From the NCBI GenBank assembly GCA_014377675.1, contig JACMPD010000177.1, forward strand, positions 1-37,052: 37,052 nucleotides of DNA. Direction: 5' to 3'. The DNA is from Taibaiella sp. Lineage in GTDB: Bacteria; Bacteroidota; Bacteroidia; Chitinophagales; Chitinophagaceae. Position 1 is the stretch's first letter; the number at the start of each line of letters is the position of its first letter. The notes beneath the pieces were generated by a model that was not told where the DNA came from, searched no databases, and saw nothing but the letters and a program-made list of their open reading frames with translations. Below, one piece after another: positions 4,334 through 33,717 of this stretch. The position numbers and the translations under genes are program-made.

Positions 4334-6637
4334 ATGCACATGGTTTCCATAAGAAGTTTATTCATTGTTTTTTTACTGGGTGCCTTTAATATGGCGGCCT
4401 ATGCACAGCATATAACCATAAGCGGCTACGTAAGCGAACAAAAGAGCGGGGAGCGGCTCACCGGTGCTATTGTGTATATCCCCAGCCTTAATATTGGTGC
4501 GGCGAGCAATACTTTTGGGTTTTACTCCATCACTTTGCCTACAGGTACTTCTGCCGTAGCGTTGAGGGCTTCTTTTATTGGCTTTGAAACTTTTGATACT
4601 TCTGTGGCTACAAATGCCAATATTGAACTGAATATACAACTCAAGGAAGCCAAAGAGTTGAAGGAAGTTGTGGTAAAGGTAAGGAAGGAAGCAGCCATAC
4701 AGGAGAGAACCCAGATGAGCAGTATCAACCTCTCTATCCAGACTATAAAATCATTACCCGCGTTCCTGGGTGAGCCTGATATAATGAAGGCGATACAACT
4801 GCTGCCGGGCATACAGGGCGGCAACGAGGGTACATCAGGCCTGTATGTAAGAGGTGGCAGCCCCGACCAGAACCTTATTTTGCTTGATGGTGTACCGGTA
4901 TATAATGCAAGCCACCTGTTTGGTTTTTTCTCTGTTTTTAATACTGATGCTATCAGGAGTGTTGAGGTAATAAAGGGCGGCTTCCCCGCCCGGTATGGCG
5001 GCAGGCTGTCATCAGTAATAGATATTAATATGAAGGAAGGCGACAAGAATAAAATACATGGCGAAGGCGGCCTGGGGCTTATAGCATCGCGCCTTACCCT
5101 TGAAGGCCCGATACAAAAAGGAAAATCTTCCTTCATGGTCTCTGGCAGAAGAACGTATGTTGACGTGCTTGCCAAACCATTTATGAAAGGTGATAACAAG
5201 GGTGGCTATTACTTCTACGACCTGAATGGCAAGGTAAACTTTACGCTGGGCAAAAAAGACCATCTGTATGCCAGCGGCTATTTCGGTAATGATAAATTTT
5301 ATTTCAGCAATGTGAATAATGACGCCACTTCGCCATCTTCATTCAGCGGAGGGCTGCAGTGGGGCAATATCACAGGTGTAGGCCGTTGGAACCACGAGTT
5401 CAGCCCTAAATTATTTGGCAATCTTACATCTTATTACAGCAGGTATAAGTTCGTTATTTCTGCTAACAGCAGCAGTACAGATAATGGTGTGAAGGATGAA
5501 TTCCAGTTGAAGTACACATCAGGCATCTCTGACGTTGCCGCCAAGTACGACCTTGACTTCTTTCCCTCGCCCAATCACTTTATAAAGGCGGGGATTGGTG
5601 TTATTTCCCATACTTACACACCGGGTGTGCAACAGACAAAAATATCTTCGGGTGGCCTAAATCAGGATACATCGGTTGGGCCGGAGCCGATACTGGGTAA
5701 TGAAATGGAAGCCTACATAGAAGATGATATACACATAAGCTCACGGATAAAGGTAAATGTAGGCATACATGCCGCAAGGTTTGATGTAAGGAATAAAAAC
5801 TATAACTCATTGCAGCCGAGAGTCTCTGCCCGCTATCTTATTAACGAAAAGCTAAGCGCGAAGGCATCTTATGTGCAAATGACGCAGTTCATCAACCTGC
5901 TCACCAATAGTTCGGTGGGCCTGCCGACAGACCTTTGGGTGCCCTCAACTGACAGAATACCGCCACAACAGTCGCAACAGGCGGCTGTGGGACTGGCTTA
6001 CACCCACAAAGCGGGTATAGAAGTAAGCCTGGAGGGTTACTACAAAACCATGGACAACCTGGTAGAATATAAGGAAGGCACCAGCTTTTTTAACAGCAGC
6101 ACCAATTGGGAAGATAAGGTGGAGGTAGGTAAGGGCTCCAGCTACGGAGCTGAGGTATTTCTGCAAAAGAAGAAGGGCAAATTTACCGGGATGCTGGGCT
6201 ATACGCTCTCCTGGACCAACCGCACTTTTGCCAATCTGAATAACGGGCAGACCTACCCTTACAAGTATGACCGGCGTAATGACTTTAAGGTAGCCGGCAT
6301 CTATACCCTAAGCGATAAAGTAGAATTCAGCGCCGAGTGGGTATACGGCACAGGCAATGCTATAACCCTGCCTATCGGTTATTACCAGGGAGTTAACGGG
6401 GAATCAATAAAAGTATATGGCAGCCGCAATGGCTTCAGAATGCCTTCTTATAACCGGGGCGATGTAGCGGTGCGTTTTACAAAGAAAAAAGCAAGATGGG
6501 AGCGGGCCTGGATAGTGAGCGTGTACAATGTGTATAACCGACAAAATCCGTTTTTCATTTATGAAGACAATGGGGAATTTAAGCAGGTGAGCCTGTTCCC
6601 TGTAATACCTGCCGTTACTTATCAGTTCAAATTCTAA
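4334..6637 (+). CDS. TonB-dependent receptor with carboxypeptidase-regulatory-like N-domain
   Basis: This is a 767-residue outer-membrane receptor that would import an unidentified ligand using TonB/ExbBD energy. Residues 1-24 are a signal peptide ending AYAQ. Residues about 27-110 form a CarboxypepD_reg-like beta-sandwich (ISGYVSEQKSGERLTGAIVY). The plug follows at about 130-235 (YVRGGSPDQNLILLDGVPVY, then VEVIKGGFPARYGGRLSSV), and a beta-barrel runs to a C-terminal aromatic strand (YQFKF). At under 800 residues it is far shorter than SusC (about 1000) and it lacks a SusD partner. Instead it is followed by a DUF4249 lipoprotein, a pairing that is common in Bacteroidota. A second ATG lies two codons inside; either start keeps the signal peptide. 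The family is clear; the substrate cannot be read from the sequence. Confidence 0.93.
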   Translation: MHMVSIRSLFIVFLLGAFNMAAYAQHITISGYVSEQKSGERLTGAIVYIPSLNIGAASNTFGFYSITLPTGTSAVALRASFIGFETFDTSVATNANIELNIQLKEAKELKEVVVKVRKEAAIQERTQMSSINLSIQTIKSLPAFLGEPDIMKAIQLLPGIQGGNEGTSGLYVRGGSPDQNLILLDGVPVYNASHLFGFFSVFNTDAIRSVEVIKGGFPARYGGRLSSVIDINMKEGDKNKIHGEGGLGLIASRLTLEGPIQKGKSSFMVSGRRTYVDVLAKPFMKGDNKGGYYFYDLNGKVNFTLGKKDHLYASGYFGNDKFYFSNVNNDATSPSSFSGGLQWGNITGVGRWNHEFSPKLFGNLTSYYSRYKFVISANSSSTDNGVKDEFQLKYTSGISDVAAKYDLDFFPSPNHFIKAGIGVISHTYTPGVQQTKISSGGLNQDTSVGPEPILGNEMEAYIEDDIHISSRIKVNVGIHAARFDVRNKNYNSLQPRVSARYLINEKLSAKASYVQMTQFINLLTNSSVGLPTDLWVPSTDRIPPQQSQQAAVGLAYTHKAGIEVSLEGYYKTMDNLVEYKEGTSFFNSSTNWEDKVEVGKGSSYGAEVFLQKKKGKFTGMLGYTLSWTNRTFANLNNGQTYPYKYDRRNDFKVAGIYTLSDKVEFSAEWVYGTGNAITLPIGYYQGVNGESIKVYGSRNGFRMPSYNRGDVAVRFTKKKARWERAWIVSVYNVYNRQNPFFIYEDNGEFKQVSLFPVIPAVTYQFKF

Positions 6638-18005: not shown

Positions 18006-19379
18006 ATGCGCTATACGTTTTTTATTTTTTTAGTATATATATTTTCCGGTATTCAGGCAGGTTTTTCGCAGGAAAGAACGGTGGTTGGCTCGGCAATAGC
18101 AAACGACACGGCCAATACCGGGGGTATGTCCCGGTTCACGCTGCGGCAGTGTATAGCTTATGCAGTACGCTATCAGCCCGCATTGCGGCAGGCTGGGGTT
18201 GATGAACGCATTGCGAAGGCTAATAAAGCGATAGCCGTTTCCAGCTGGCTGCCGCAGGTGAACGCATCCGCTAACTACCAACACTACCTGCAGCTGCCCA
18301 CAACTTTCTTTCCGGTTAATGGTACGCTTACGCCAATACAGACAGGGGTTATCAATACCTCCTCTCCCCAGGTAGCGGTTACACAGAGCATCTTCAGCAA
18401 TGAAACACTGCTGGCTAACCGTACTGCCTCGCTTTATATACAGGCATCAAAAGAAAACACCAACGCCGCCCTCATTAACCTGGTGGTGGCTGTGAGCAAG
18501 GCTTTTTATGATGTGCTGCTTTCTGCGGAGCGGGCCGGTGTGTACCGGGAAGATACCGCACGGCTGAGGAAAAACCAAAGCGACGCTTACCACAGGTTCG
18601 TGAGCGGTATAGCTGATAAGGTGGACTACAAGCAGGCTACGATAGCGCTAAATAACTCCATGTCGCAGTTGAAAACCGCGACTGAAGATGTGGCCGCTAA
18701 AACCGCTACCCTGAAGCTGCTGATGGGCAGCCCGCAGGAGCATAATTTTACAGTCAGTTATGGTACCGCGCAGATGATGCGCGATATAGTAGCTGATACC
18801 CTTGGGCCGCTACGGGTAGAACGGCGGGTGGAGTACCGGCAGCTGCAGCTGGTAAGGCGCATACAGCGGCAGAGCACCCGCTATTACAAGCTGGGTTTTT
18901 TGCCCACGCTTTCCGCTTTTTATACCTATAACTACCCTTTTCTAAACAATAACTACGCTGACCTGTATAGCAAGGGATACCCAAACTCCTTCTACGGGTT
19001 GTCTTTTAATATCCCGATATTCACTGGCTTTAGGCGCACAGCCAATGTGCGCAAGGCCGAACTGCAGGAAGAGCGCATGGACTGGGATGAGGTAAACCTG
19101 GAGCTGACCATATACGCGGAGTATAAGAAGGCACTGGCAGCTTATAAAAGCAACTACTACTACCTGGCGACCCAGGCTGAAAACGCCGCGCTGGCGAGGG
19201 AGGTTTACAATGTAGTAAAGCTGCAATATGCCGAAGGCGTAAAGGCATATCTTGATGTGATAATAGCCGAGGCAGACTTGCAGACATCAGAAATAAATTA
19301 CCAGAACTCCCTGTTCCAGACGCTGCAAAGCAAGACTGACCTGGACAAGGCCATAGGAAATGTAGACATAGATGAATAA
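18006..19379 (+). CDS. TolC-family outer-membrane efflux channel
   Basis: The 457-residue protein would form the trimeric exit duct of the RND pump encoded next to it. A signal peptide (residues 1-21, ending GFSQ) is followed by two related helical halves typical of the outer-membrane efflux protein fold: FTLRQCIAYAVRYQPALRQA near the start, a long coiled-coil, and a second repeat around 270-440 (LSFNIPIFTGFRRTANVRKA, then AREVYNVVKLQYAEGVKAYL). It is first in a tolC-adaptor-pump operon on the plus strand, 66 bases before the adaptor. Confidence 0.93.
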   Translation: MRYTFFIFLVYIFSGIQAGFSQERTVVGSAIANDTANTGGMSRFTLRQCIAYAVRYQPALRQAGVDERIAKANKAIAVSSWLPQVNASANYQHYLQLPTTFFPVNGTLTPIQTGVINTSSPQVAVTQSIFSNETLLANRTASLYIQASKENTNAALINLVVAVSKAFYDVLLSAERAGVYREDTARLRKNQSDAYHRFVSGIADKVDYKQATIALNNSMSQLKTATEDVAAKTATLKLLMGSPQEHNFTVSYGTAQMMRDIVADTLGPLRVERRVEYRQLQLVRRIQRQSTRYYKLGFLPTLSAFYTYNYPFLNNNYADLYSKGYPNSFYGLSFNIPIFTGFRRTANVRKAELQEERMDWDEVNLELTIYAEYKKALAAYKSNYYYLATQAENAALAREVYNVVKLQYAEGVKAYLDVIIAEADLQTSEINYQNSLFQTLQSKTDLDKAIGNVDIDE

Positions 19380-19445
19380 TGCCGCCCTGATAAAGCGGTG
19401 TAATAATAATAGGTATGCGGGCGTTGCCTGCGCAAAGCAAGTAAT

Positions 19446-20624
19446 ATGAACAATATAATTGCCAGGTTAACTGTAGTTACATTAAGCTCCTTTTTATCGG
19501 TGGGTTGCGGCGATAAAAAGCCCGTACCCCCTAACCCGGCCACCTTGCCGGTACCGGTAAACCTGTACACGGCCCAGCGGGAAGAGGCGCTTTACTATGA
19601 CCAGTACCCCGGCACACTGGTGGCCCTGCAGCAGGTGGAGCTTCGCCCGCAGGCGGAAGGATATATAACCGCTATGTTTTTTAAAGAAGGCGAAGCGGTG
19701 AAAAAGGGACAAAAGCTGTATGAAATAGACAGAACCCGCTACCAGGCCGGCCTGGGGCAGGCGGAAGCGGGTGTGCAGGTAGCGGCAGCCAACCTGGCAC
19801 AAGCACAGAAAGACGCTGACCGGTACATATACCTTAATGAGCATGAAGCAGTAGCGAAGCAGACCCTTGACCACGCCCTCACGACCCTTGAAAACGCCAA
19901 AAACCTGCTAAAAGCCGCCAAACAGGATATTGTAAAATCGCAGACAAGCCTCAACTATTCCATAGTGCGGGCGCCATTTGACGGTGTAACGGGTATATCT
20001 CAGGTGAAGGTGGGCACATCAGTAAGTACGGGGCAAACTATATTGAATACCATATCAACCATAGACCCTGTTGCGGTTGACTTTGTGATAAATGAGAAGC
20101 AGATACCGCGCTTCGCGGCGCTGAGGGAACAGAAAGCCGCTGCAGGTGACAGCCTGTTTACCCTATTGCTGCCTGATAACAGCGTGTACCCATACCCCGG
20201 GCGTATAACCCTTATAGACCGGAGCGTGAACGCGCAGACAGGCAGCATAACGGTAAGGCTGCAGTTCCCGAACCCCGGTAAAATGCTGTACCCCGGTATG
20301 AGCTGCAAAGTAAGGGTGCGCAACCAGCACGCAGGCCCGCAGCTGCTTGTGCCAGGCAAGGCGGTGGTGGAGCAGATGGGCGAATTTTTTGTATACATAG
20401 CCAAAGACACAGTTATTGATAACCCCGCTGACACCACGGCAAAGAACAAAGGAGTTTCTGCCATGCACGCTCTGCAGCGTAAAGTGGTATTAGGCGCTGT
20501 GGTGGCGGATAAGATAATTGTAAAAACCGGCATTGAAGCAGGTGACGCGGTGATAGCCGACGGCGTGCAGAAAATGCGCGACGGCGCCCTTATAAAAATA
20601 CAGGAAGCGCCGCCCGCTAAATAG
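19446..20624 (+). CDS. RND efflux periplasmic adaptor (MFP) lipoprotein
   Basis: The 392-residue lipoprotein (lipobox SVGC near residue 20) bridges the inner-membrane pump and the TolC-like channel. The first lipoyl half is at about 70-100 (VELRPQAEGYITAMFFKEGE), a helical hairpin rich in Ala/Gln/Lys spans about 105-165, the second lipoyl half is YSIVRAPFDGVTGISQVKVG, and the beta-barrel and membrane-proximal domains follow. Length and layout match the AcrA/MexA group. It lies 56 bases before the pump gene. Confidence 0.93.
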   Translation: MNNIIARLTVVTLSSFLSVGCGDKKPVPPNPATLPVPVNLYTAQREEALYYDQYPGTLVALQQVELRPQAEGYITAMFFKEGEAVKKGQKLYEIDRTRYQAGLGQAEAGVQVAAANLAQAQKDADRYIYLNEHEAVAKQTLDHALTTLENAKNLLKAAKQDIVKSQTSLNYSIVRAPFDGVTGISQVKVGTSVSTGQTILNTISTIDPVAVDFVINEKQIPRFAALREQKAAAGDSLFTLLLPDNSVYPYPGRITLIDRSVNAQTGSITVRLQFPNPGKMLYPGMSCKVRVRNQHAGPQLLVPGKAVVEQMGEFFVYIAKDTVIDNPADTTAKNKGVSAMHALQRKVVLGAVVADKIIVKTGIEAGDAVIADGVQKMRDGALIKIQEAPPAK

Positions 20625-20680
20625 TAAGCAAAAACAATGATGGGGGAAAGCCGCACTAACACCATACAAAACAAATTATT

Positions 20681-23600
20681 ATGATTGCAGATGTATTTAT
20701 AAAACGGCCCGTAACAGCTATAGTCATTTCCCTGGTGCTGCTGCTGGTGGGGGCTATTTGCATAAGGGTGCTGCCGGTGGGGCAATACCCTGAAATAACC
20801 CCGCCTACCGTGCAGGTAACAGGGCAGTTTACCGGCGCAGATGCCCTTACGGTAGAGCAGACCATGGTGACGCCTGTTGAGGCCCAGATAAACGGTACAC
20901 CCAATATGCAGTACCTGCAAAGCAACAGCACAGCCAACGGAGCCATGTCTATTAATGTGGTCTTTAACGTAGGCACCAATGTAGATGTGGCGGCAGTTGA
21001 TGTGCAGAACAGGGTGAGCATAGCCACTCCGCAGCTGCCTGATGTGGTAAAGCGGCTCGGCCTTACTGTGAAGAAGCGCAACCCGAGCATACTGATGCTG
21101 GTGGCCGTGTATGCCCCACAGGCCAGCCATGATGTGACTTTTGTAGATAACTACACCAATATATTTGTGCGGGACGCACTGCTGCGCGTGAAAGGGGTAG
21201 GGGACATAGTAACGCGGACTGATGACTTTAGTATGCGTGTATGGCTTAACCCCGATAAACTGGCGGCCTATGGCATAGCCGCCGGCGATGTTACCGCCGC
21301 GCTCAGCGAGCAGAACGTGCAGGTGGCTGCCGGTTCGGTAGGGGCACCGCCGCAGCAGAGCACCCAGGTATTTGAGTACAGCCTGCTGGTAAACGGGCGC
21401 ATTAATAAGGTAAGCGATTTTGAAAATATAATTATTAAAACACAGCCCGGCCAGGGGCAGGTGGTGTACCTAAAAGATGTGGCGCGCGTTGAGCTGGGTA
21501 AGTTTGCCTACGCCAGCAATTCGTTTGTTGACGGCAAGCGTGCCTCTTACCTGCTGGTGTACCAGGCGCCGGGCAGCAATGCACTTCAAACGGCGCAGGG
21601 TGTTTATGAAAAGATGGAAGAGCTGAGACCCTCCTTCCCGGCTGGGATAGCCTACAGTGTCCCTTTTGAATCGGTTACGGTAGTAAAGGTATCGCTGCAT
21701 GAGGTGCTGCTGACACTGCTGGAGGCTCTTGGCCTGGTAGCCATAGTGGTGTTCCTTTTCCTGCAAAACTGGCGGGCCACGCTTATCCCGCTCCTGGCTA
21801 TACCGGTTTCAATAGTAGGTACGTTTATCTTCTTTATCCCGCTTGGCTTCACCATCAATACTCTTACTATGTTCGGCTTTGTGCTGGCTATTGGTATAGT
21901 GGTTGATGACGCCATTGTGGTGGTAGAGGCGGTGCAACACTATATTGATGAAAAAGAAATGAGCGCCCGGGAGGCGACCATAGCCGCCATGAAGGATATT
22001 TCAGGCCCGGTGGTGGCGATAGCACTTATACTCGCGGCTGTGTTTGTACCTGTGGCCTTTATACCCGGTATAGTAGGTAGGCTCTACCAGCAGTTCGCGG
22101 TTACCATTGCTATCTCCGTGTTACTTTCGGCTTTTATCGCTTTGTCGCTTACACCGGCGCTCTGTACCCTGCTGCTGAGGAAAAGCGAGGTGAACGCGCA
22201 GGCGCGCGGCCTTAACAAGCTGTTTTATAAATTTAATAACTGGTTTGAAGGGTTCGCGCATAAGTATACCAATGGCGTGCAGCGGAGTATAAAGGCATCA
22301 AAACTGGTTTTGATCCTGTTGGTTTGTGTGGGTTTTGGTACCTTCCTGCTGTTTAAAAGTAAGCCTTCCGGCTTTATACCTACCGAAGATGAAGGGCGTA
22401 TATTCATTACCTATGAGCTGGCTGAGGCCGCTTCCACCACCCGTTCGCTTGAGGTATTGCATAAAGTTATGGATGTGGTACAAGGTACGCCCGGTGTTGG
22501 CCACTTCGCCGCCCTTGGCGGGCTTAATGTGGTTACCTTCTCCACCAAATCAAACAGCGGCAGCATCTTCTGCCAGCTGAAACCGTGGGATGAGCGCACA
22601 AAGGCGGCTGAGCAGGTCCCTGGGATATTAGATGAGCTGCGCCGCCGCATAGCCGAAGCCGGCATAAAGCAGGCCAATGTGGTGGTGATTTCGCCGCCGC
22701 CTATACCGGGTCTGGGCCAGACCGCCGGTTTCAGTATACAGATACAGCAAAGGCAGACGGCTGATGATGTGCGGGCTTTTGAAAAAGTAGTGAAGAACTT
22801 TGTAGCCGAAGTAAACAAAGACCCCGTGACCGGGAACGCATTCAGCTTTTATGGCGCGCATACTCCGGGCTACAATGTAACCGTGGACCGGGAGAAATGC
22901 AAGAAAATGGGTGTGGCCATATCTGATGTTTTTGGTGCTATACAAACGTTTATGGGTAGCTACTACGTGAACGATATAAGCCTGTACGGCCGCAACTTCC
23001 ACGTGGTGGTGCAGGCCGACACCAACTTCAGGACTATAATAACGGATATGGACAAGTACTATGTGCGCAACCAGGCCGGGCAAATGCTGCCGCTGAGCAC
23101 CCTGGTCACTTATTCGCCAACGGAGACTGCACCGCTTATATCTCATTTCAATATCTTCAGGTCAGCTGAGGTAAATGGTTCCCCAAAAACCGGCTACAGC
23201 AGCGGGCAGGCCATAGAGGCGCTGAAGGCTATAGCCGCACGTACACTGCCGCAGGGCTATGGCTATGAGTTTTCAGGGCTCAGCTATGAGGAGGAACATG
23301 CCGGTTCGGCTTCAACGTATATATTTATGTTGTCTATTGTTTTTGTATTCCTGTTCCTTGCGGCCCTTTACGAAAGCTGGTCTATACCCTTTTCTGTATT
23401 GCTCTCGGTGCCGCTGGGCGCGTTCGGGGCCATACTCACACTCACTATGGTGCCATCACTTACCAATAATATATACGCTCAGATCGGGTTGATAACCCTC
23501 ATAGGGCTCTGCGCCAAAAACGCCATACTTATAGTAGAGTTCGCGAAAGAGCGGGTGGATAGCGGGGAAGATATTGTGAAGGCCACACTGGAAGCGGTGC

Positions 23601-23821
23601 GGCTGCGGCTGAGACCTATTATTATGACTTCCCTTGCGTTTATACTCGGCGTGCTGCCGCTGGTGCTCGCTGAAGGCGCGGGTGCAGTGGCACGGCGCAC
23701 CATCGGGTTTACAGTGCTGGGCGGTATGGTGGCTGCCACTTCACTGGCTATTTTTGTCGTCCCGGTATTGTTTGTCGTTATTTCCAAAGTCGCATTCCGC
23801 CAAAGAGAGCGTGCGGTTTAG
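20681..23821 (+). CDS. RND multidrug efflux pump, HAE1 family (AcrB-like)
   Basis: The 1046-residue inner-membrane proton antiporter is the expected size for HAE1 pumps. It opens with the family's MIADVFIKRPVTAIVISLVL, has two large periplasmic loops, and twelve predicted transmembrane helices. The proton-relay aspartates are present in GIVVDDAIVVVEAV of TM4, and the second-half signature is GLCAKNAILIVEFAKER. Together with the channel and adaptor upstream it should form a complete tripartite exporter. No regulator gene is adjacent. The operon ends in a strong terminator. Confidence 0.95.
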   Translation: MIADVFIKRPVTAIVISLVLLLVGAICIRVLPVGQYPEITPPTVQVTGQFTGADALTVEQTMVTPVEAQINGTPNMQYLQSNSTANGAMSINVVFNVGTNVDVAAVDVQNRVSIATPQLPDVVKRLGLTVKKRNPSILMLVAVYAPQASHDVTFVDNYTNIFVRDALLRVKGVGDIVTRTDDFSMRVWLNPDKLAAYGIAAGDVTAALSEQNVQVAAGSVGAPPQQSTQVFEYSLLVNGRINKVSDFENIIIKTQPGQGQVVYLKDVARVELGKFAYASNSFVDGKRASYLLVYQAPGSNALQTAQGVYEKMEELRPSFPAGIAYSVPFESVTVVKVSLHEVLLTLLEALGLVAIVVFLFLQNWRATLIPLLAIPVSIVGTFIFFIPLGFTINTLTMFGFVLAIGIVVDDAIVVVEAVQHYIDEKEMSAREATIAAMKDISGPVVAIALILAAVFVPVAFIPGIVGRLYQQFAVTIAISVLLSAFIALSLTPALCTLLLRKSEVNAQARGLNKLFYKFNNWFEGFAHKYTNGVQRSIKASKLVLILLVCVGFGTFLLFKSKPSGFIPTEDEGRIFITYELAEAASTTRSLEVLHKVMDVVQGTPGVGHFAALGGLNVVTFSTKSNSGSIFCQLKPWDERTKAAEQVPGILDELRRRIAEAGIKQANVVVISPPPIPGLGQTAGFSIQIQQRQTADDVRAFEKVVKNFVAEVNKDPVTGNAFSFYGAHTPGYNVTVDREKCKKMGVAISDVFGAIQTFMGSYYVNDISLYGRNFHVVVQADTNFRTIITDMDKYYVRNQAGQMLPLSTLVTYSPTETAPLISHFNIFRSAEVNGSPKTGYSSGQAIEALKAIAARTLPQGYGYEFSGLSYEEEHAGSASTYIFMLSIVFVFLFLAALYESWSIPFSVLLSVPLGAFGAILTLTMVPSLTNNIYAQIGLITLIGLCAKNAILIVEFAKERVDSGEDIVKATLEAVRLRLRPIIMTSLAFILGVLPLVLAEGAGAVARRTIGFTVLGGMVAATSLAIFVVPVLFVVISKVAFRQRERAV

Positions 23822-23843
23822 CTCTTTATTGTTTGTGAAAGAT

Positions 23844-23876
23844 ACCCCCGGCCATAAGTGCCGGGGGTTTCTTTTA
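23844..23876 (+). terminator. Rho-independent terminator of the efflux operon
   Basis: acccccggc (23844-23852) and gccgggggt (23860-23868) form a perfect 9-bp stem with loop cataagt, followed by ttcttttat. Confidence 0.88.
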
Positions 23877-24307: not shown

Positions 24308-26065
24308 ATGCGAACAAAAAACTACTTATTGAGAAAAATGGGGATTTTGCCTGTTTTTCTTGGTGTTATGTCACTTGGGCTCACAGCCCGGGCGTCAAGC
24401 CACAGGGAAGCGCCGCTAATCTCCCGTGACCCACAGGCTGATAATACTGACCTGTATGTATTCAGGAGCCCTGATAACCCAAATACGGTTACCATTATTG
24501 CCAACTACATTCCTTTTGAGTCACCGGAAGGCGGCCCGAACTATTACAGTTTTGGTAAAAATGTGAGATATGAAATCCACATTAAAAACAAAACGACGAC
24601 AACAGGTGATGATATTACTTATCGCTTCACCTTCTCCCAGGTTAACCAGGACACGACAACGTTCTTTAACATCCGTTTGGGCCAGCAAAACCTGAAAACC
24701 ACCTACAAGTGCGAAAAGAGCACTGACGGCGGTGCTTCTTGGTCAACCGTTGTGAATACAGGTGTAGTACCACCCAACAACATTGGCCCGCGTTCTATCC
24801 AGAACACTACAGTCGGTCTGGGTGCATCGAGCTATATGAGCCTGATGACTTCAGCAATTCAGACACCTTCATCAGGTGAAAGTATTTTCTGCGGCCCTGT
24901 TGACGATCCTTTCTTTGCTGATCTTGCAGGCATTTTTGATCTGGGTAATGTCCGCCCGGGTGGCCTTAGTACAGCCAATGCGCCTAAAGATGCGTTAGCC
25001 CGTTTCAACTGCCACACTATAGCTATGAAAATACCTATAAGCATGTTGCAGAAAAGTGGTTTAAGCGTTTCTTCAGCTGTAAACATACTTGATCCTAATT
25101 TCGTAATTGGGGTTTGGGCATCAGCCAGCCGCCAGCAAATCAAAACTTTAGCCAGTGACTCCGCGGCATATTCAGGCAGTTGGATACAGGTATCCCGACT
25201 TGGTATGCCACTGACCAATGAAGTAATTATACCTATTGGTATGAAGGACAAGTGGAATTCTGCCAACCCTGCAAACGATGTTCAGTTCGCTAAGTATTTC
25301 AGCAATCCTGAACTCGCATTATATATGGATGCGTCCGCTTTCGGTGGTGCAGTGCCTGCTTTAAACGCTTTGAGGGTGCAATCAGCGTCTTTAGGTATGT
25401 TTGATTTCAGGAATACGCGCAAAGGGCTTTACGGCCTGAAAGGTACTGCCTTCGTTGCAGGAACAGCTTTAGCCGAATCAGCTTTTGGCGGTGTATTGTT
25501 ACCTGACTCCATGAGCCCTCGTGCTGTGGATATATTACCTATCTTCTATACAGGTGTACCTAACCTGGCTCCTTACCAGTTAGCGACCGGCAAACCCGCC
25601 AACTCACCGCTATCTGTAGGCAAACCATTCATTAATAACTTTCTGCCTACACTTGGTGATATGCTCCGCCTGAATATGGCAGTACCTACCACATCACGTA
25701 CTGACCCTAATTTCAGTTCTTTAGGTATAGTGAATGCAGCGGTTTTAGGTCTCACGGTTGCGCCTTACAATACTGATACAACAATGATGTTTATCCCGAA
25801 TATGGATGGCTTCCCTAATGGCCGCAGGCTTGAAGATGATGTAGTTACCATTGAGCTGCAGGCAGTAGGTGGCGTAGCCCTCGCTGCAATAGGATTGTGG
25901 TATAACGATTATCGTGGTACAGGATCACCTGTTACGCCTCAGTTATTAAATGTATTAACATTCAATGGCGGTATCACTAAAAACGATACAACGTTCCAGA
26001 ACGGATTCCCTTATGTGCAGCAGCCATGGAGAGGATACGATTATTCTTACCAGGCGAGGTTCTAA
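24308..26065 (+). CDS. DUF4331 family exported protein (paralogue 1, no T9SS tail)
   Basis: The 585-residue protein has a signal peptide (1 to about 28) and then the DUF4331 hallmark SSHREAPLI immediately after the cleavage site, followed by DNTDLYVFRSP and the family core (PFESPEGGPNYYSFGKNVRY, FCGPVDDPFFADLAGIFDLG, TNEVIIPIGMKD, FIPNMDGFPNGRRLEDDVVT). The domain's function is unknown; the Asp- and His-rich conserved strings could bind a metal. Unlike its neighbour it stops directly after the domain (PWRGYDYSYQARF), with no sorting tail, so it should remain periplasmic or be released by another route. It lies 44 bases before its paralogue, a tandem duplication. Confidence 0.9.
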   Translation: MRTKNYLLRKMGILPVFLGVMSLGLTARASSHREAPLISRDPQADNTDLYVFRSPDNPNTVTIIANYIPFESPEGGPNYYSFGKNVRYEIHIKNKTTTTGDDITYRFTFSQVNQDTTTFFNIRLGQQNLKTTYKCEKSTDGGASWSTVVNTGVVPPNNIGPRSIQNTTVGLGASSYMSLMTSAIQTPSSGESIFCGPVDDPFFADLAGIFDLGNVRPGGLSTANAPKDALARFNCHTIAMKIPISMLQKSGLSVSSAVNILDPNFVIGVWASASRQQIKTLASDSAAYSGSWIQVSRLGMPLTNEVIIPIGMKDKWNSANPANDVQFAKYFSNPELALYMDASAFGGAVPALNALRVQSASLGMFDFRNTRKGLYGLKGTAFVAGTALAESAFGGVLLPDSMSPRAVDILPIFYTGVPNLAPYQLATGKPANSPLSVGKPFINNFLPTLGDMLRLNMAVPTTSRTDPNFSSLGIVNAAVLGLTVAPYNTDTTMMFIPNMDGFPNGRRLEDDVVTIELQAVGGVALAAIGLWYNDYRGTGSPVTPQLLNVLTFNGGITKNDTTFQNGFPYVQQPWRGYDYSYQARF

Positions 26066-26109
26066 GCCGCATCCATTTTCAACAACAAACAATTCAAAAA
26101 AACTTAATC

Positions 26110-28137
26110 ATGAGAAATATTTTAAACAAACTGTGTACGGCGGCGCTGATAACGTTGCTCCCACAAATTCAGGCCGTTGCCTCGTCTCACAGGGAGGCGC
26201 CGCTAATAGCTTTCGACGGGCAGGCAGACAATACTGACCTTTATGTATTCAGAAGCCCATGCGACACCAATAAGGTGGTAATTATTGCCAATTACATACC
26301 TTTTGAACATCCTGCGGGCGGGCCAAACTGGTATTCTTTCGGGCAGAATATACGCTACGAAATACACATCAAAAACAAAACCACCACGACTGGTGATGAT
26401 ATTATTTATCGTTTTACCTTCACTCAAAGAAATGAAGATTCTTCAACTTTCTTCAATATAAGGTTGGGTAAGGAAAATCAAAAGACGGTATATATGTGTG
26501 AGCGCAGCGTTAATGGCGGCAGCAGCTTTACAGCAATTAAAACGGGCGGTACAGTACCCCCGGCTAACATAGGGCCACGCTCTATTGATGGTCCGGTTGG
26601 TTTGAACCACACAGCAGGTTATGATGACCTGATGATGTCAGCTGTTACAACGGCCACTACAGGTGAGAAATTATTCTGCGGCCCCGTTGATGATCCGTTC
26701 TTCGTTGACCTGGGTGGTGCTTTTGATGTTGGCGGTTTCCGCAGCGTTGGCCGTGATGCTCTGGCGAAATTCAATTGCCATACTATAGCTATCGAAGTAC
26801 CTATTTCTACTTTGCAGGCAACAGGTTTGTCTACTACTTCAGCCACCAGCATTCTTGACCCTAACTTTATTATAGGTGTTTGGGCATCAGCCAGCAGGCA
26901 CACAATAACTACCCTCAGCACCGTAGGCGCTGATCCATCTACATCCGGTTCATGGGTGCAAATCTCCCGCATAGGTATGCCGCTTACTAACGAGGTAATA
27001 ATACCTATAGGCGCTAAAGACAGGTGGAATGGCGCGAACCCTTACACTGATGACATCAACTACGCCAAGTACTTCAACAATCCTGAACTGGCTCTATACA
27101 TGGATGCTTCAGCATTCGGTGGCGCAGTACCAGGTCTTGCCCCACTACGTATACAGACGGCTTCTTTAGGTACTTACGATTTCCGTAACACGAAAAAAGG
27201 TTTGTATCCTTTGAAAGGTAGTGCAGCAGTTGCAGGTACCGCATTAGATGATGCACTATTTGGTACTTTATTGCTCCCAGATTCCATGAGCCCACGTTCG
27301 GTAGATCTTCTCCCTATCTTCCTTACCGGTGTGCCTAACCTGGCTCCTTATCAACTGGCTACAGGTAAGGGTGGTAACCCGCTTGCTAACGGCAAGCCGT
27401 TTATCAACAACTTTATGCCTACCAAAACAGATATGATCAGGTTAAACATGGCAGTTCCGCCTACGCCTCGTAACAGTGCCGCTTTCAGTTCACTTGGGTT
27501 GGTACAGGCAGCAGTGCTTGGTTTAACTGACACTAATTACAACAGAACCGCCGCGTTACAGTTTATTCCTAACATGGATGGCTTCCCTAACGGCCGCAGG
27601 CTTGAAGATGATGTAACTACCATTGAGTTGCAGGCAGTATCAGGTGTTGTGTTAGCTGCCATTGGTTTGTGGTATGATGACTACACGGGCTCAGGCAGCC
27701 CTGTAACGGCTAACCTGGTGAGCGTATTATCTTTCAATGCAGGTGTTACTAAGAATGACACTACGTTTAAAGGTTGCTTCCCCTATTTACAGGATCCGTG
27801 GAGAGGCTTTACAGGCGCACAATATACAGGCCCTACCCTGGGTGTAAACACGCAGCAGCTGCCATTAAATACTCCTATGGCTGTTATGTCAGTGTTCCCT
27901 AACCCGGTAGCTTCAGCGGTTAACTTCCGTTACAAACTAACAGTTAGCGCCAACATCAATATCCAGATTACGGATATGACGGGTGGTGTGGTAAAAATGA
28001 TCAATGAGGGCGGCAGAGGTGCCGGCGACTATACCGCTCAGTGGGATGCTTCAGCATTGCCAACGGGTAACTATATCGTGAACCTGATTGCTAACAATGA
28101 AATACAGCAGACTGCTAAAATAGTGGTTGCCCACTAA
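26110..28137 (+). CDS. DUF4331 family protein with T9SS type A sorting tail (paralogue 2)
   Basis: I use the ATG at 26110 (675 residues), which starts a proper signal peptide; the track start at 26026 lies inside the upstream gene. The DUF4331 domain again begins right after the signal peptide (SSHREAPLIAFDGQADNTDL) and parallels paralogue 1 throughout. It then adds a linker and an 80-residue type A T9SS C-terminal domain (SVFPNPVASAVNFRYKL, IQITDMTGGVVK, LPTGNYIVNL, ending AKIVVAH). The tail should direct secretion across the outer membrane and attachment to the cell surface. The pair suggests one periplasmic and one surface-bound version of the same activity. A terminator follows. Confidence 0.92.
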   Translation: MRNILNKLCTAALITLLPQIQAVASSHREAPLIAFDGQADNTDLYVFRSPCDTNKVVIIANYIPFEHPAGGPNWYSFGQNIRYEIHIKNKTTTTGDDIIYRFTFTQRNEDSSTFFNIRLGKENQKTVYMCERSVNGGSSFTAIKTGGTVPPANIGPRSIDGPVGLNHTAGYDDLMMSAVTTATTGEKLFCGPVDDPFFVDLGGAFDVGGFRSVGRDALAKFNCHTIAIEVPISTLQATGLSTTSATSILDPNFIIGVWASASRHTITTLSTVGADPSTSGSWVQISRIGMPLTNEVIIPIGAKDRWNGANPYTDDINYAKYFNNPELALYMDASAFGGAVPGLAPLRIQTASLGTYDFRNTKKGLYPLKGSAAVAGTALDDALFGTLLLPDSMSPRSVDLLPIFLTGVPNLAPYQLATGKGGNPLANGKPFINNFMPTKTDMIRLNMAVPPTPRNSAAFSSLGLVQAAVLGLTDTNYNRTAALQFIPNMDGFPNGRRLEDDVTTIELQAVSGVVLAAIGLWYDDYTGSGSPVTANLVSVLSFNAGVTKNDTTFKGCFPYLQDPWRGFTGAQYTGPTLGVNTQQLPLNTPMAVMSVFPNPVASAVNFRYKLTVSANINIQITDMTGGVVKMINEGGRGAGDYTAQWDASALPTGNYIVNLIANNEIQQTAKIVVAH

Positions 28138-28160
28138 TACGGTCACTGAGATATAATGCA

Positions 28161-28192
28161 ATAAGAGGCCGGATTTTTCCGGCCTCTTATAA
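28161..28192 (+). terminator. Terminator hairpin after the DUF4331 pair
   Basis: A perfect 13-bp inverted repeat, ataagaggccgga (28161-28173) and tccggcctcttat (28178-28190), has a 4-base T loop. There is only a weak T-tract outside. It is palindromic and could work in both directions or only attenuate read-through into the TPR gene. Confidence 0.65.
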
Positions 28193-28266
28193 TTGAAGCC
28201 CTACCTGCCAGTATTTTAAAAGGATTATCTTCAGGCCAGGCATTAACACACTGCTAAAAACAAGAC

Positions 28267-29616
28267 ATGAAAGCAAGATATTTACTTATTTTATTGATAG
28301 CCGTGGCTATCGGGTGCACTACGGGCCTTACATCCTGCAAACAGAAGGAAGAGGAATTTCCCGCATTGCTGGAGCGTAAAAAAGCGACAGGGACAAAAGA
28401 GGAAGAGACCAGTATAAAGGAGGCGTATAACAAGGCTATAGAGGGCCTGAAGAAAAATCCTGAAGACCTGCAGCAATACATTAACCTTTCATCAGTATAC
28501 ATAACTGAAGGACGCATTACCGGCGATAACAGCTACTACAGCAACGCCGCCTTAAAAATGCTGAGTAAAGTAACAGAAAGCAAAACAGCCAATAAAGACC
28601 TTGAATTTCAGGCACTGAGCGTAAAATCAGCAGTACTGCTTAACCTGCACCAGTTTAAACAGGCACTTGAAACCGCACAACAGGGAGTTGCTATCAATAA
28701 CTACAATGCGGCCATTTACGGTGCACTGGTAGATGCGAACGTAGAGATGGGCAACTATGATGAGGCGGTAAAGGACTGCGACAAAATGATGGCTATAAGG
28801 CCTGACCTGCGCTCTTACTCCCGCGCGTCTTATCTCCGCCAGATATACGGGCAAAACGACGGTGCTATTGAAGCCATGAAAATGGCCGTGGACGCGGGTG
28901 TACCCGGGTCTGAAAATACGGAATGGGCCCGCACAACACTCGGCGATCTGTACCTGGCTAAGGGTAACGTGGACAGCGCTTCAGTCATTTACCGTACCTC
29001 GCTCGTTTACCGCCCCTCTTATCCTTTTGCGGTGATAGGCATGGCCAGGGTGGAGAAAGCAAGGAAAAACTATGACGCCGCCATAACGCAAACCAGGAAT
29101 GCGATAACTATCCTGAGCGATGTGGCGTTCGTGGCCCTGCTTGCGGATCTTTATGAGCTGAAAGGCGATGTTGCAAAAGCTAAAGAAACAAGAGAAGAGG
29201 TAATACGCCTGCTGGAACAGGGACAAAAGAGCGAAGAGAATAATGCAAATGCAAAACATAACGCAAGCAGAGAAATGGCAACCGCATATATGAACGCCGG
29301 CAAGCTGGACGAGGCACTGAAATTTGCAAAGACTGACCTGGAGATGCGCCCCTCAAATATTGACGCCAATGAGCTGGCCGCCTGGATATATTATTTGAAG
29401 GGTGACTACGCCAATGCCCGCACACACGCTGATAAAATGCTGGCTACCAATACCGCCAACGCCAATACCCTGTACAAGGCAGGCGCAATATATACGGCCG
29501 CAGGAGTGCCTGATAAAGGCAGTGAACTGATGAACAAAGCACTCGCTGTAAACCCGCTTATAGACCAGCGATTGATAAGCCAGGTAAAGCCAGCTGTAGT
29601 GAACAATAAGTCTTAA
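28267..29616 (+). CDS. TPR-repeat lipoprotein
   Basis: The 449-residue envelope protein has an N-terminal lipoprotein-like signal with two possible cysteines (AIGC, or LTSC near residue 24, followed by KQKEEE). The rest is a solenoid of about ten TPR units; good examples are LNLHQFKQALETAQQGVAIN, VDANVEMGNYDEAVKDCDKM and TAYMNAGKLDEALKFAKTDL. TPR proteins act as scaffolds, so it may hold together the DUF4331 proteins and the TonB receptor of this cluster, which is inference from position. It lies 17 bases before the small His-rich protein gene. Confidence 0.87.
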   Translation: MKARYLLILLIAVAIGCTTGLTSCKQKEEEFPALLERKKATGTKEEETSIKEAYNKAIEGLKKNPEDLQQYINLSSVYITEGRITGDNSYYSNAALKMLSKVTESKTANKDLEFQALSVKSAVLLNLHQFKQALETAQQGVAINNYNAAIYGALVDANVEMGNYDEAVKDCDKMMAIRPDLRSYSRASYLRQIYGQNDGAIEAMKMAVDAGVPGSENTEWARTTLGDLYLAKGNVDSASVIYRTSLVYRPSYPFAVIGMARVEKARKNYDAAITQTRNAITILSDVAFVALLADLYELKGDVAKAKETREEVIRLLEQGQKSEENNANAKHNASREMATAYMNAGKLDEALKFAKTDLEMRPSNIDANELAAWIYYLKGDYANARTHADKMLATNTANANTLYKAGAIYTAAGVPDKGSELMNKALAVNPLIDQRLISQVKPAVVNNKS

Positions 29617-29633
29617 ATCACGTGTAGTATAAA

Positions 29634-30089
29634 ATGAGCCATCTTGCTTCAGCACCATATTGTAAAACCCCGGCCCCTTCTTTTAAGGAGTGTGCCGGTG
29701 GCTTTATGCGGGAGCTGAAAAGCGTAATGACGGTTAAGATAGCCTGGCTGCTGATACTGGCATATGCCTTGGTGCTGGTAAAGCCGGTGATGCCGGTGAT
29801 AGCCGATGCCGCAGCACATGCCATGTGGGAAAGCAGGCACATAGCCACCGTACATGAAGAGCACGGCAAGTTCCACCTACACTACGAGGTACTGCAAAGC
29901 AATGCAGGCAGTGAGAAAGAAAAGCACGCCCCCGTGTATAAAAGTATGATTGCTGATGACCTGTTCATCTTACCCGTGCAGGGTGTTCAGCTGCGCCTGT
30001 TTGCGCCTCGGCTTATTCACCATTCCGGCCGTTCGGCAATCGCAGCACTGTATGAACCTATAACCCGTTACCAACCTCCCAAAGTTTAA
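29634..30089 (+). CDS. Small His-rich exported protein upstream of TonB receptor
   Basis: The ORF has 151 codons; the true start may be the ATG at 29706 (MRELKSVMTVKIAW) or 29727, which brings the hydrophobic segment TVKIAWLLILAYALVLVKPV to the N-terminus as a signal or anchor. After it comes IADAAAHAMWESRHIATVHEEHGKFHLHY, rich in His and Glu, then a basic C-terminal part. Similar short proteins with this IADAAAH...H-rich pattern are found next to metal-linked TonB receptors and efflux genes in Bacteroidota; that is recollection, not a search result. A metal-binding role in the periplasm is plausible but unproven. Confidence 0.65.
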   Translation: MSHLASAPYCKTPAPSFKECAGGFMRELKSVMTVKIAWLLILAYALVLVKPVMPVIADAAAHAMWESRHIATVHEEHGKFHLHYEVLQSNAGSEKEKHAPVYKSMIADDLFILPVQGVQLRLFAPRLIHHSGRSAIAALYEPITRYQPPKV

Positions 30090-30120
30090 AATCTGAGTGC
30101 CTGCCCATTGAACAACCTCA

Positions 30121-30249
30121 ATGAGCAACCGGCTGCGCCACAAGCGTGGCAAGGCGTGCATGTGTATGCACAGCCCTGGCTTCATCTATCGTCTTCCCTT
30201 GGTGGAAGCGGATGAGAACGCCATGGTATTCCCTCAACTCATTTTTTAA
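30121..30249 (+). CDS. Possible 42-aa Cys/Met/His small ORF before TonB receptor
   Basis: The ORF is too short for the track. It starts MSNRLRHKRGKACMCMHS, contains a CMCMH cluster, ends in QLIF and stops 10 bases before the receptor ATG. Coding reality is uncertain. It might be a metal-responsive leader peptide or chance. The DNA here also folds into several short hairpins (for example gtgcatgtgtatgcac). Confidence 0.25.
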   Translation: MSNRLRHKRGKACMCMHSPGFIYRLPLVEADENAMVFPQLIF

Positions 30250-30259
30250 ACCTCCTCCA

Positions 30260-32551
30260 ATGAAACCAATTGTACAGAAGATAATTTTATATTTTATAGT
30301 GCTGGCGGTGCCGGCAACATTATACGCCCATAAAGGCAGCCTCCGGGCTGTTGTTTATGACGGCAACACCCGGAAACCCCTTGAAGGCGTGAGCATCTAC
30401 ATCAAATCAATTGATCAAAGCGCGGTGACAGACGCATTCGGCAAATTTTTCCTGAGGGGCATAGCGGCAGGCAACCATAAAATAGTACTCAGCCACCTGG
30501 GCTATGAGAATATTGAAGATGAGCTGAAGATAGAAGACGGCGTTACCACCGAAGCAAGCTGGTATATGAGCGGCGCGGCCATACAAATGGCCTCCGTTTC
30601 AGTAAATGCCGGCAAGGCGCTCAACCTCAGCAGCATTAGTGGCATTGACCTGAAATTGCGTCCTGTTAATAACACCCAGGATCTGCTGAGGCTGGTGCCG
30701 GGTTTGTTTATAGCGCAGCACCAGGGCGGTGGCAAGGCGGAGCAGATATTTTTGCGGGGCTTTGATTGTGACCATGGTACTGATATAAATATAACCGTGG
30801 ACAATATGCCGGTAAACATGGTATCGCACGCGCACGGGCAGGGTTTTGCCGATGCGCATTTTATTATTCCTGAAGCGGTGCAGGAGGTGGACTATGGCAA
30901 GGGGCCGTACCAAATAGACAAGGGCAACCTTTGCACCGCAGGCTATGTGGCGCTGAAAACTAAAAACGAACTGGATAACAACTTTATTAAAGGCGAGGCG
31001 GGCAGTTTCGGTTACTACCGAATGGCCGCCGGCCTGCAGTTGCTTACCCGCAACCAGGACAGCAATGCGCACCAGGACGCCTACATAATGGGGGAGTATG
31101 GCTACAACCGCAGCTACTTCGATGCGCCGCAGAATTTCAACCGGTTTAACCTGATGGGAAAGTACACCAATTATATATCAAATGATAAGATATTTTCGCT
31201 CACACTTTCCGGTTTCCGCTCCTCATGGGATGCCTCAGGGCAAATACCCACCCGCGCAGTGGAGCAGGGCCTTGTGGGCAGGTATGGAGGCATAGACCCT
31301 GAAAGCGGCCTCACCGGCAGGTACAACATGAACCTGCAATATTATCAGAGTATCAACAACAACAGCAGCGTTAAATCAAATCTGTACCTGGCATACTATC
31401 ACTTCAATCTTTATTCTGATTTTACCTATTTCGCACAAGATCCCGATCAGGGCGACCAGATCTTTCAGTCAGAGAAAAGAGTTGTGGCAGGCTATAACTC
31501 CGAATATGCGACAAACTACACGGCAGGCGGGCTTAAGATGAAGACCCAGGCGGGCGTTGGCATACGGTATGATAACATTACGGGCAATGAATTGTCGCAC
31601 ACCATAGGCAAAACCGTTTTGCTGAACAGGGTTCAATACGGCGATATCAATGAAACCAATGTATTTGGCTATGTAAATCAAACGATATACGTGCTGCCCC
31701 GCCTCGTTATTAACCTGGGTACACGCTTTGATCAATTTGTGCAGCAATACACCAACCGCATGCCTAACGAAAAAACCAGGAGCACAGCCACCACCGGCAA
31801 ACTGAGCCCCAAGGCTGGTGTTTATTATAACTTTAGTGACAATGCGCGGGTCTACTACAATTACGGAACCGGTTTTCATAGTAATGATACCCGGACTGTG
31901 GCGCTCGGCGGGGTGCCTGCCGGCAATACAGTACCTCAGGCGTTTTCTCATGACTTAGGCGTTGTTATTAAGCCCGTACGCAGGTTGCTGTTATCCGCGG
32001 CGGTATGGCACCTTAACCTGCAGCAGGAATTTGCGTATGCAGGTGATATGGCGGTTATTGACACCTCCGGCAGAACGCGCAGAATGGGCATTGATTTTTC
32101 AGCACGCTATGAAATATTTAAGTGGCTGTATGCTGATTTTGATATTAACTATGCTCATTGCAGGGCAATAGACCAGCCCGCCGGCAATGATTTCATCGCC
32201 CTCGCAGCACCCCTTACTTCCATAGGCGGCCTTACTTTTAAAGTAAACAAGAGCATCACCGCCAGCCTCCGCTACAGGCACATCGGCGACAGGCCGGCCA
32301 CTGATGACAACACACTTACCGCATTAGGCTATACGGTGTGTGACGCCGTTGTCAACTACTCGCGCAAAAAATACGAGTTCGGTGTGCAGGTGCAAAACCT
32401 CTTCAACACAGAGTGGAATGAGGCTCAGTTCGCGACTGAAACAAGGTTGAAATTGCCAGGTGGCAGCCTGGAGCAATCTTCAGCTACTGATGTATGCTTC
32501 ACCCCGGGTACACCATTTTTTATCAAGTTTAGCGCCACCTATAAATTTTAA
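30260..32551 (+). CDS. TonB-dependent receptor, metal-type plug
   Basis: I use the ATG at 30260 (763 residues), the first that gives a signal peptide (MKPIVQKIILYFIVLAVPAT ... YAH); the track start at 30146 is in the gap. Residues about 26-105 are a CarboxypepD_reg-like domain (RAVVYDGNTRKPLEGVSIYI). The plug at about 130-240 contains VPGLFIAQHQGGGKAEQIFL, FDCDHGTDINITVDNMPVN and SHAHGQGFADAHFIIPE. The His-rich HAHGQG string is, to my knowledge, typical of Bacteroidota receptors beside heavy-metal genes. The barrel ends SATYKF. With the His-rich protein upstream, metal or metal-complex import is the best guess. Asp/Cys in FDCDHG replaces the more usual FDADHG. Confidence 0.9.
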   Translation: MKPIVQKIILYFIVLAVPATLYAHKGSLRAVVYDGNTRKPLEGVSIYIKSIDQSAVTDAFGKFFLRGIAAGNHKIVLSHLGYENIEDELKIEDGVTTEASWYMSGAAIQMASVSVNAGKALNLSSISGIDLKLRPVNNTQDLLRLVPGLFIAQHQGGGKAEQIFLRGFDCDHGTDINITVDNMPVNMVSHAHGQGFADAHFIIPEAVQEVDYGKGPYQIDKGNLCTAGYVALKTKNELDNNFIKGEAGSFGYYRMAAGLQLLTRNQDSNAHQDAYIMGEYGYNRSYFDAPQNFNRFNLMGKYTNYISNDKIFSLTLSGFRSSWDASGQIPTRAVEQGLVGRYGGIDPESGLTGRYNMNLQYYQSINNNSSVKSNLYLAYYHFNLYSDFTYFAQDPDQGDQIFQSEKRVVAGYNSEYATNYTAGGLKMKTQAGVGIRYDNITGNELSHTIGKTVLLNRVQYGDINETNVFGYVNQTIYVLPRLVINLGTRFDQFVQQYTNRMPNEKTRSTATTGKLSPKAGVYYNFSDNARVYYNYGTGFHSNDTRTVALGGVPAGNTVPQAFSHDLGVVIKPVRRLLLSAAVWHLNLQQEFAYAGDMAVIDTSGRTRRMGIDFSARYEIFKWLYADFDINYAHCRAIDQPAGNDFIALAAPLTSIGGLTFKVNKSITASLRYRHIGDRPATDDNTLTALGYTVCDAVVNYSRKKYEFGVQVQNLFNTEWNEAQFATETRLKLPGGSLEQSSATDVCFTPGTPFFIKFSATYKF

Positions 32552-32641: not shown

Positions 32642-33717
32642 CCATTACGTAATATATATTAGTCTGATAGTATTGAGATTAAAGCATTGGCGAGATAAAG
32701 AAACTACTGAAAGGCAGTGATCCCATGATAGCCAAAAGATTGCATGCCTTGCTCATTTTTCAACATGAAGGAACCGGCATTCCCAAACGTGAAGCAACTG
32801 AAAGTATAGGTGTTAATCACAACAGTATTCAAACATGGCGCAGTTTATATATTGCCGGGGGGGCTGGAAGGGTTAATGAGCCATCGTAAAACAGGCTATA
32901 AGCCGAGCATAATAACTGCTGAGCAGCAAGAGGCTATAAAAGAGCAAATGCACAAACCAGACAATGGCTTTGTTGGGTTCATTGAGCTGTTAGCATGGTT
33001 TAACGAAAAATTCAATACCGATGTGAACTACAAAACTTTTCATGGTTTTGTGGTAAGAAAATTTGATGCAAAAATAAGAACAGCCCGTAAACTACATGTA
33101 AAAAAAGACCCTGAGGCAGTAGCGGCTTTTAGAAAAACTTCAGTTGTGAATGTGAAAAAATATTTAAAGACAAAGGAGAAGGATACGAAAAAGTAAACCT
33201 GTATTGCCACGATGAAGCCAGATTTGTACTATTTACCCGGAATGGAAATGGGCTAACAGCCAAGGGCGTTAAACCGGTGAGCAAGTTTCAACAAGTATGT
33301 CAATCATTATATTTATTTGGGGCGTACTCGCCATTTACCGGTGATCATTTTGAACTGGAATTACCGCACTGCAATACAGATAGCTTTGGAGTTTTTCTTG
33401 AAGAATTTTCAAGAGAAACTCCAAATGAGTTTAAACTAATTTTGCTTGATAATGGCGCGTTTCATAAAGCAGCTGATCAGGCTATCCCCAATAGCCTTGC
33501 TATTCATTCCGCCTTATTCCCCGGAGTTAAATCCGGCCGAAAAAATGGTGGAGAATAACAAGAGCGTTTACAGGTAAACTACACAAATGACTTGACGCCG
33601 CAAGCCTTTTCATAAAGGAAGAAGTGATGAAACTCACTAATGACATCGTTACGAAAACTTGCAAATTAGACTATGCATTTTTATCTAAATTTTAGACTAA
33701 TTTATATTAGATATTGG
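32642..33717 (+). mobile_element. Decayed IS630-type insertion sequence with TIRs
   Basis: The element is about 1076 bases long. Its ends are imperfect inverted repeats: CCATTACGTAATATATATTA at 32642 and, reading inward from 33717 on the minus strand, CCAATATCTAATATAAATTA; about 20 of the first 24 bases agree. TA flanks both ends (32640-32641 and 33718-33719), as expected for IS630/Tc1-mariner insertion. Its transposase gene is broken by several frameshifts, so it cannot move on its own. It sits between the TonB receptor terminator and coaD without damaging either. Confidence 0.8.
32725..33695 (+). pseudogene. IS630 family transposase, multiply frameshifted
   Basis: Reading across frames gives one IS630-type transposase. 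The N-terminal helix-turn-helix begins at ATG 32725 (MIAKRLHALLIFQHEGTGIP). A run of seven G at 32857-32863 shifts the frame; it resumes as LEGLMSHRKTGYKPSI. A second shift is in the A run near 33155 (resuming YEKVNLYCHDEARFVL, first catalytic Asp), and a third lies near 33505 (resuming FIPPYSPELNPAEKM, the DDE-E motif). A lost base follows near 33541 (resuming WRITRAFTGKLHK), then an in-frame TGA. The gene ends DYAFLSKF with TAG at 33693-33695. Tracks 32810-33196 and 33277-33558 are its fragments. Confidence 0.85.

Follow-up and report, generated by a model that had tools for sequence, protein, structure and literature searches.

The window analysed here, a 37,052-nucleotide stretch of DNA from a Taibaiella species of the Bacteroidota, is the entire contig C87 of a 3.2-Mb metagenome-assembled genome (MAG) that is 84.6% complete. 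Positions 24308-32551 hold five genes, all on the + strand: two encode DUF4331 proteins (D1 and D2), and these are followed by genes for a tetratricopeptide repeat (TPR) lipoprotein, a small histidine-rich protein and a TonB-dependent receptor. A sequence-only reading of this DNA had proposed that the five products capture, process and import one ligand, perhaps a metal; its placement and naming of the genes were confirmed by a check of open reading frames (ORFs) and by profile matches. The comparative analysis described below shows that the cluster is real and conserved, one lineage's form of a cluster widespread in bacteria. It is very probably metal-related, its likely role being the capture of a metal such as nickel or copper.

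The DUF4331 locus of Taibaiella

D1 and D2 are 67% identical and both are full-length members of their family, the PF14224 profile being covered from position 1 to 421 of 421 in each (gathering cut-off 27 bits). A type IX secretion system (T9SS) sorting tail (PF18962, TIGR04183) was found on D2 only and none on D1, as had been anticipated for one paralogue of the pair. The receptor is an ordinary TonB-dependent receptor by model and by fold, with Pfam CarbopepD_reg, Plug and barrel domains (fold search E 4.5e-37), and the HAHGQG plug pointed out previously is present within the motif SHAHGQG. The ORF of the small histidine-rich protein opens at 29634, and a start at 29706 or 29727 is likelier. 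This protein matched no Pfam family; its relatives occupy the same position in other loci, and histidine-rich small proteins are also encoded directly upstream of receptors in loci free of DUF4331 (for example L191, L198, L199 and L209). At L089:13579-13974 and L091:13575-13997, a small protein with an HCxHCHH motif takes its place between the TPR and receptor genes.

Table 1. Positions of genes, predicted mature starts and other elements of the locus; lengths are in amino acids (aa)
Feature	Position	Strand	Basis
D1, DUF4331 protein, 585 aa	24308..26065	+	Sec signal, no T9SS tail; PF14224 440.6 bits
D1 predicted mature N-terminus SSHREAP	24395	+	sequence-predicted
D2, DUF4331 paralogue, 675 aa, T9SS C-terminal sorting domain	26110..28137	+	PF14224 406.9 bits; Por_Secre_tail 41.5 bits; TIGR04183
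D2 predicted mature SSHREAP	26182	+	sequence-predicted
Strong hairpin, either terminator or attenuator, in the gap from D2 to the TPR gene	28161..28192	+	-24.1 kcal/mol
TPR lipoprotein, 449 aa, second core gene	28267..29616	+	TPR family matches; Sec signal, lipobox-like LTSC
Small membrane-anchored histidine-rich protein	29706..30089	+	same-position relatives in other loci
TonB-dependent receptor, 763 aa, CarbopepD_reg domain	30260..32551	+	Pfam; TonB-dependent transporter fold
Receptor predicted mature start, possibly His	30329	+	sequence-predicted
Receptor-subfamily plug signature DHGTD...VNMVSHAHGQGFADAHF	30770..30862	+	HxHGQG in 55/56 aligned family members

The stretch 18006-23868, directly upstream of the five genes, holds an efflux trio of outer-membrane efflux protein (OEP), membrane fusion protein (MFP) and AcrB-type resistance-nodulation-division (RND) protein. 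Because the last gene of the trio stops at 23821 and a strong hairpin resembling a terminator follows it (23844-23868), the transcription unit probably begins at D1. Directly behind the receptor gene lies a transposase remnant (32726-33558; HTH_32 and DDE_3, IS630-like), and another, less related TonB receptor is encoded at 4334-6637.

Linkage of DUF4331, TPR and permease genes across phyla

DUF4331 is present in 69 of 249 genomes of the same family. By hand count of 40 fetched neighbourhoods, a TPR gene lies close to DUF4331 on the same strand in 36, a HupE-like gene occurs in 26 and a receptor gene in 20; direct DUF4331-TPR adjacency occurs 67 times in named loci, with a median gap of 101 bp. 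In a set of 198 Bacteroidota genomes, the receptor shares a genome with DUF4331 in 17 cases against 4.1 expected (p = 3e-10) and with HupE_UreJ_2 in 25 against 8.0 (p = 1.6e-12), and 17 genomes against 7.2 expected hold both DUF4331 and HupE_UreJ_2 (p = 2e-5), all three p values ignoring shared ancestry. In 12 of the 17 genomes with both DUF4331 and the receptor, a hand reading of coordinates placed the two within about 6 kb. The link between DUF4331 and its TPR and TonB neighbours, which the sequence-only reading had named as a check, is thus confirmed and lies far above chance.

The DUF4331-TPR gene order was found in Bacteroidota, Actinomycetota and Pseudomonadota. Plasmids of Marinobacter, Pseudoalteromonas, a Comamonadaceae bacterium and Lichenicola carry DUF4331, then the TPR gene, then HupE/UreJ, and in Paraburkholderia hospita the TPR and HupE/UreJ genes come before DUF4331. 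In Streptomycetaceae the third gene is NicO, of a nickel-transport family, in place of HupE; NicO likewise fills the permease slot in an Ignavibacteria MAG, and in locus L128 the TPR and HupE genes are separated by a DUF6702 gene. Since this order recurs outside Bacteroidota with a permease as the third gene, the core of the cluster is DUF4331-TPR-metal permease (HupE/UreJ_2 or NicO), and the TonB receptor is a Bacteroidota addition to it. The earlier view of the five genes as one system holds as regards their linkage, but the conserved core includes a permease that lies outside the window, and the receptor is an add-on.

Some loci (L052, L065-L071) encode DUF4331 in split form, as an N-terminal protein of about 220 aa and a C-terminal lipoprotein of about 175 aa, again with TPR and receptor genes, and L052 holds the full-length and split forms together. 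A Hymenobacter plasmid stretch without DUF4331 (L190:3139-12666) encodes a receptor relative and a HupE/UreJ_2 protein of the long type, together with three copies of DUF3500, which may stand in for DUF4331 there.

The HupE orthologue of the Taibaiella MAG is encoded on a separate contig (C260) and is 73-76% identical to copies within operons of the same genus. It has 218 aa with PF13795 (148.3 bits) starting at residue 39, and lacks an N-terminal beta-sandwich Ang domain; a histidine is predicted right after the signal peptide, with cleavage between LLASA and HVIQF, as in the anglerase permeases discussed below. By comparison, proteobacterial DUF4331 loci encode a long form of 369 aa with the HupE domain at 181-335. 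On C260 the gene sits 529 bp behind a CusA/CusB-type efflux set, and the stretch L073:2960-10470 comprises a histidine-rich small protein, a 1446-aa RND protein fused to OEP, an MFP and then the HupE orthologue. The transposase remnant behind the Taibaiella receptor gene might be related to loss of HupE from the operon.

Histidines at predicted mature N-termini and in the receptor

The motif SSHREAP or STHREAP was found in 170 of 176 DUF4331 proteins. In these 170 the preceding residue is always of the signal-peptidase-like A/S/G type (Ala in 147, Ser in 18, Gly in 5), and while the signal peptides themselves vary, the motif stays. Beyond its first position (SHREAP, including H3, R4, E5, A6 and P7) it is invariant in 24 DUF4331 proteins from several phyla. 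The mature protein, as predicted from sequence, would start S-S-H-R-E-A-P in every phylum sampled; D1 and D2 show the same pattern in a putative cleavage context, and the split form, which is divergent, has ADH[ILV]D[SA]P as its start, preceded by ..YA or ..FA. An N-terminus of the X-X-His type is the amino-terminal copper and nickel binding (ATCUN) pattern, which binds Cu(II) and Ni(II). Such a start was predicted for 116 of 144 DUF4331 proteins, compared to 3 of 193 other secreted proteins of these loci. On these predictions, DUF4331 appears in each of the sampled phyla to begin with a natural tag for metal binding.

The partners of DUF4331 show a related pattern. Histidine at the predicted +1 position was found in 23 of 34 HupE proteins and 29 of 55 receptors, again compared to 3 of 193 other secreted proteins. 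Receptors beside full-length DUF4331 have this histidine in 30 of 49 cases, compared to 2 of 21 elsewhere (p = 6e-5). A literature search returned no paper joining N-terminal histidine with TonB receptors. Within the receptor itself six histidines are nearly invariant (protein positions 154, 172, 190, 192, 200 and 540), five in the plug and one in the barrel, and the full or a close plug signature also occurs in nickel-linked receptors of Cupriavidus and Methylomagnum.

Seven loci of receptor relatives were inspected for context, and six have metal-related neighbours (HoxN, nikR, hyp, cobalamin or HupE genes). On plasmids, the relatives of Cupriavidus H16 and Bradyrhizobium lie beside HoxN and [NiFe] hydrogenase genes, that of Afipia beside nikR with hyp genes, that of Methylomagnum beside nikR, that of Methylorubrum beside cobalamin biosynthesis genes and that of Hymenobacter beside HupE; no metal gene was seen in the neighbourhood of the Sphingobium relative. 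In a Bacteroidota locus (L199:140-7870), the receptor and a histidine-rich small protein follow UreF, UreG, UreD and a urea transporter in a urease accessory operon, and the receptor is present in five of the six urease-bearing genomes of the sample (p = 3e-4). The X-X-His and N-terminal histidine ends, the nickel-gene neighbours of the receptor family and the HupE/NicO partners together support the suggestion of a metal ligand and point to a transition metal, probably nickel, copper or cobalt.

The predicted structure of DUF4331 is confident overall (pLDDT 82, pTM 0.88). Neither a sequence search against solved structures nor a fold search of the PDB identified a relative (best E 9.5e-3; query-normalised TM at most 0.13 among the matches listed), so the fold gave no function for DUF4331, and a literature search for DUF4331 or PF14224 found no paper. 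As to location, DUF4331 lies within or beside a type II secretion system (T2SS) gene cluster in all five Rhodobacterales plasmid loci examined (L164, L173, L174, L176 and L178), four of which also have an A24 prepilin peptidase. Since two unrelated secretion systems, the T9SS tail of D2 and these T2SS clusters, point the same way, the data suggest that the DUF4331 protein works outside the cell.

Probable metal acquisition and alternative explanations

Taken together, these results favour, with reasonable probability, a model in which a module of DUF4331, TPR protein and permease acquires a transition metal (nickel, copper or cobalt), the locus being its form in Bacteroidota. In this model D1 and D2 would be exported, with T9SS either anchoring D2 at the cell surface or releasing it there, and their predicted free N-terminal Ser-Ser-His-Arg-Glu could bind Cu(II) or Ni(II) as an ATCUN chelator. 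The receptor, with its histidine-lined plug and often an N-terminal histidine, would bring the metal itself or a chelate of it through the outer membrane; the histidine-rich small protein and the TPR lipoprotein would hold it or hand it over at the envelope; and the N-terminal-histidine HupE permease encoded elsewhere in the genome would carry it across the inner membrane. We infer metal binding by DUF4331, the direction of transport, the order of hand-over and the identity of the metal, and the capture, 'processing' and import assigned to the five genes by the sequence-only reading have the same standing. A bolder proposal, which we regard as possible and put forward tentatively, is that DUF4331, for which no solved structure shares the fold, represents a novel type of protein metallophore, secreted through T9SS, T2SS or Sec depending on the phylum, that would bind Cu(II) or Ni(II) through an ATCUN N-terminus generated by signal peptidase and pass the metal to a receptor and a permease with N-terminal histidine.

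Several observations weigh against metal acquisition. Most relatives have a HupE permease gene at this place; the window lacks it, and a search there for remnants found none. No urease or [NiFe] hydrogenase was matched in the 84.6%-complete MAG, so a nickel demand is not evident in it, leaving copper or cobalt still possible; DUF4331 also does not track [NiFe] hydrogenase across Bacteroidota genomes. A search for Ni-superoxide dismutase gave no match anywhere and so cannot show absence. Signal cleavage was assigned with a crude rule of our own making, which placed the site of the window receptor four residues ahead of the histidine, and confidence is low for residues 1 to 4 of the DUF4331 model. 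Finally, some members of the NicO and HupE families are of uncertain transport direction, and the Streptomyces NicO has a histidine-rich loop that we liken to the exporter RcnA.

The strongest alternative, although unlikely, is an envelope-stress or adhesion module in which DUF4331 and the often adjacent fasciclin are secreted structural proteins regulated by SigK/RskA, with the metal partners incidental. An extracytoplasmic function (ECF) sigma factor and an RskA-type anti-sigma factor are encoded upstream of the Pseudoalteromonas locus, fasciclin genes adjoin DUF4331 in L052, L057, L066, L068, L069 and the Streptomyces locus L165, and DUF4331 has no catalytic or metal domain recognised by Pfam or fold search; a literature search found no paper joining SigK/RskA with fasciclin. 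However, two different metal-transport families fill the permease slot, and N-terminal His and X-X-His are far above background.

Slightly less likely is metal efflux or detoxification, with DUF4331 sequestering excess metal outside and the permease exporting it. While the NicO loop and the CusA/CusB-type efflux set ahead of the genome's own HupE fit this idea, TonB receptors import, the receptor relatives accompany urease, hydrogenase and nikR genes, and the HupE/UreJ members assayed in the literature mediate nickel transport (PMC2667541). We consider it improbable that the receptor imports an organic or tetrapyrrole cofactor such as pyrroloquinoline quinone (PQQ), haem, B12 or a related chelate. 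Its closest solved structure by profile and by fold is PqqU/YncD, and there are weak matches to TonB-hemin and B12 models, but the position of Y99, the signature residue of PqqU (PMC12124388), is a histidine in all 56 aligned receptors, Rfam gave no match in the window and hence no known riboswitch, cobalamin riboswitch included, and the relatives have nickel-gene neighbours. On the same replacement of Tyr99, identity of the receptor with PqqU was rejected.

A division into two unrelated transcription units at the hairpin behind D2 is very improbable, since despite its strength and the 130-bp gap, relatives keep gene order and hairpin together. Hairpins below -14 kcal/mol occur in 76% of 63 equivalent DUF4331-TPR gaps, compared to 7% of shuffles. 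Thus the element once named as a possible divider is real, but it is a conserved feature of the cluster that more likely tunes expression; in the simplest reading it keeps the genes downstream expressed at a lower level than the secreted DUF4331 protein.

Metal acquisition by a DUF4331-TPR-permease module provides a testable, function-oriented hypothesis for a widespread family with neither a solved relative nor a paper found. The uptake of nickel and copper by Bacteroidota is, to our knowledge, poorly understood in its extracellular and outer-membrane steps. The hypothesis joins a secreted protein to HupE/UreJ_2 permeases and to a receptor subfamily associated with nickel in one picture, and it suggests that several steps of one route use a metal-binding N-terminus created by signal peptidase.

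The nearest parallels to this picture are the anglerase HupE/UreJ_2 permeases Ang-1 and Ang-2, whose N-terminal-histidine domains, according to the text examined of PMC12537917, bind Cu (Kd, the dissociation constant, about 60-75 nM) and Ni in vitro. They resemble the Taibaiella HupE in being PF13795 permeases with a predicted mature N-terminal histidine, whereas the Bacteroidota form is without the ~175-aa Ang domain and the window itself without a permease gene; DUF4331, TPR and N-terminal-histidine TonB receptors are not mentioned in that portion of the paper. The DUF6702 and DUF4198 metal proteins covered in the same portion (PMC12537917) share with DUF4331 the idea of a secreted, metal-binding N-terminus, but are not Pfam-homologous to it and have histidine at position 1 rather than 3. 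While PqqU/YncD is the nearest solved protein to the receptor, the invariant histidine sets it apart. The NikR- or HoxN-linked, nickel/cobalt-associated TonB receptors of proteobacterial plasmids are 28-33% identical to the window receptor, and in Bacteroidota the receptor has a CarbopepD domain in addition and, in many cases, an N-terminal histidine; the likeness consists in a shared plug signature and shared nickel-gene neighbourhoods.

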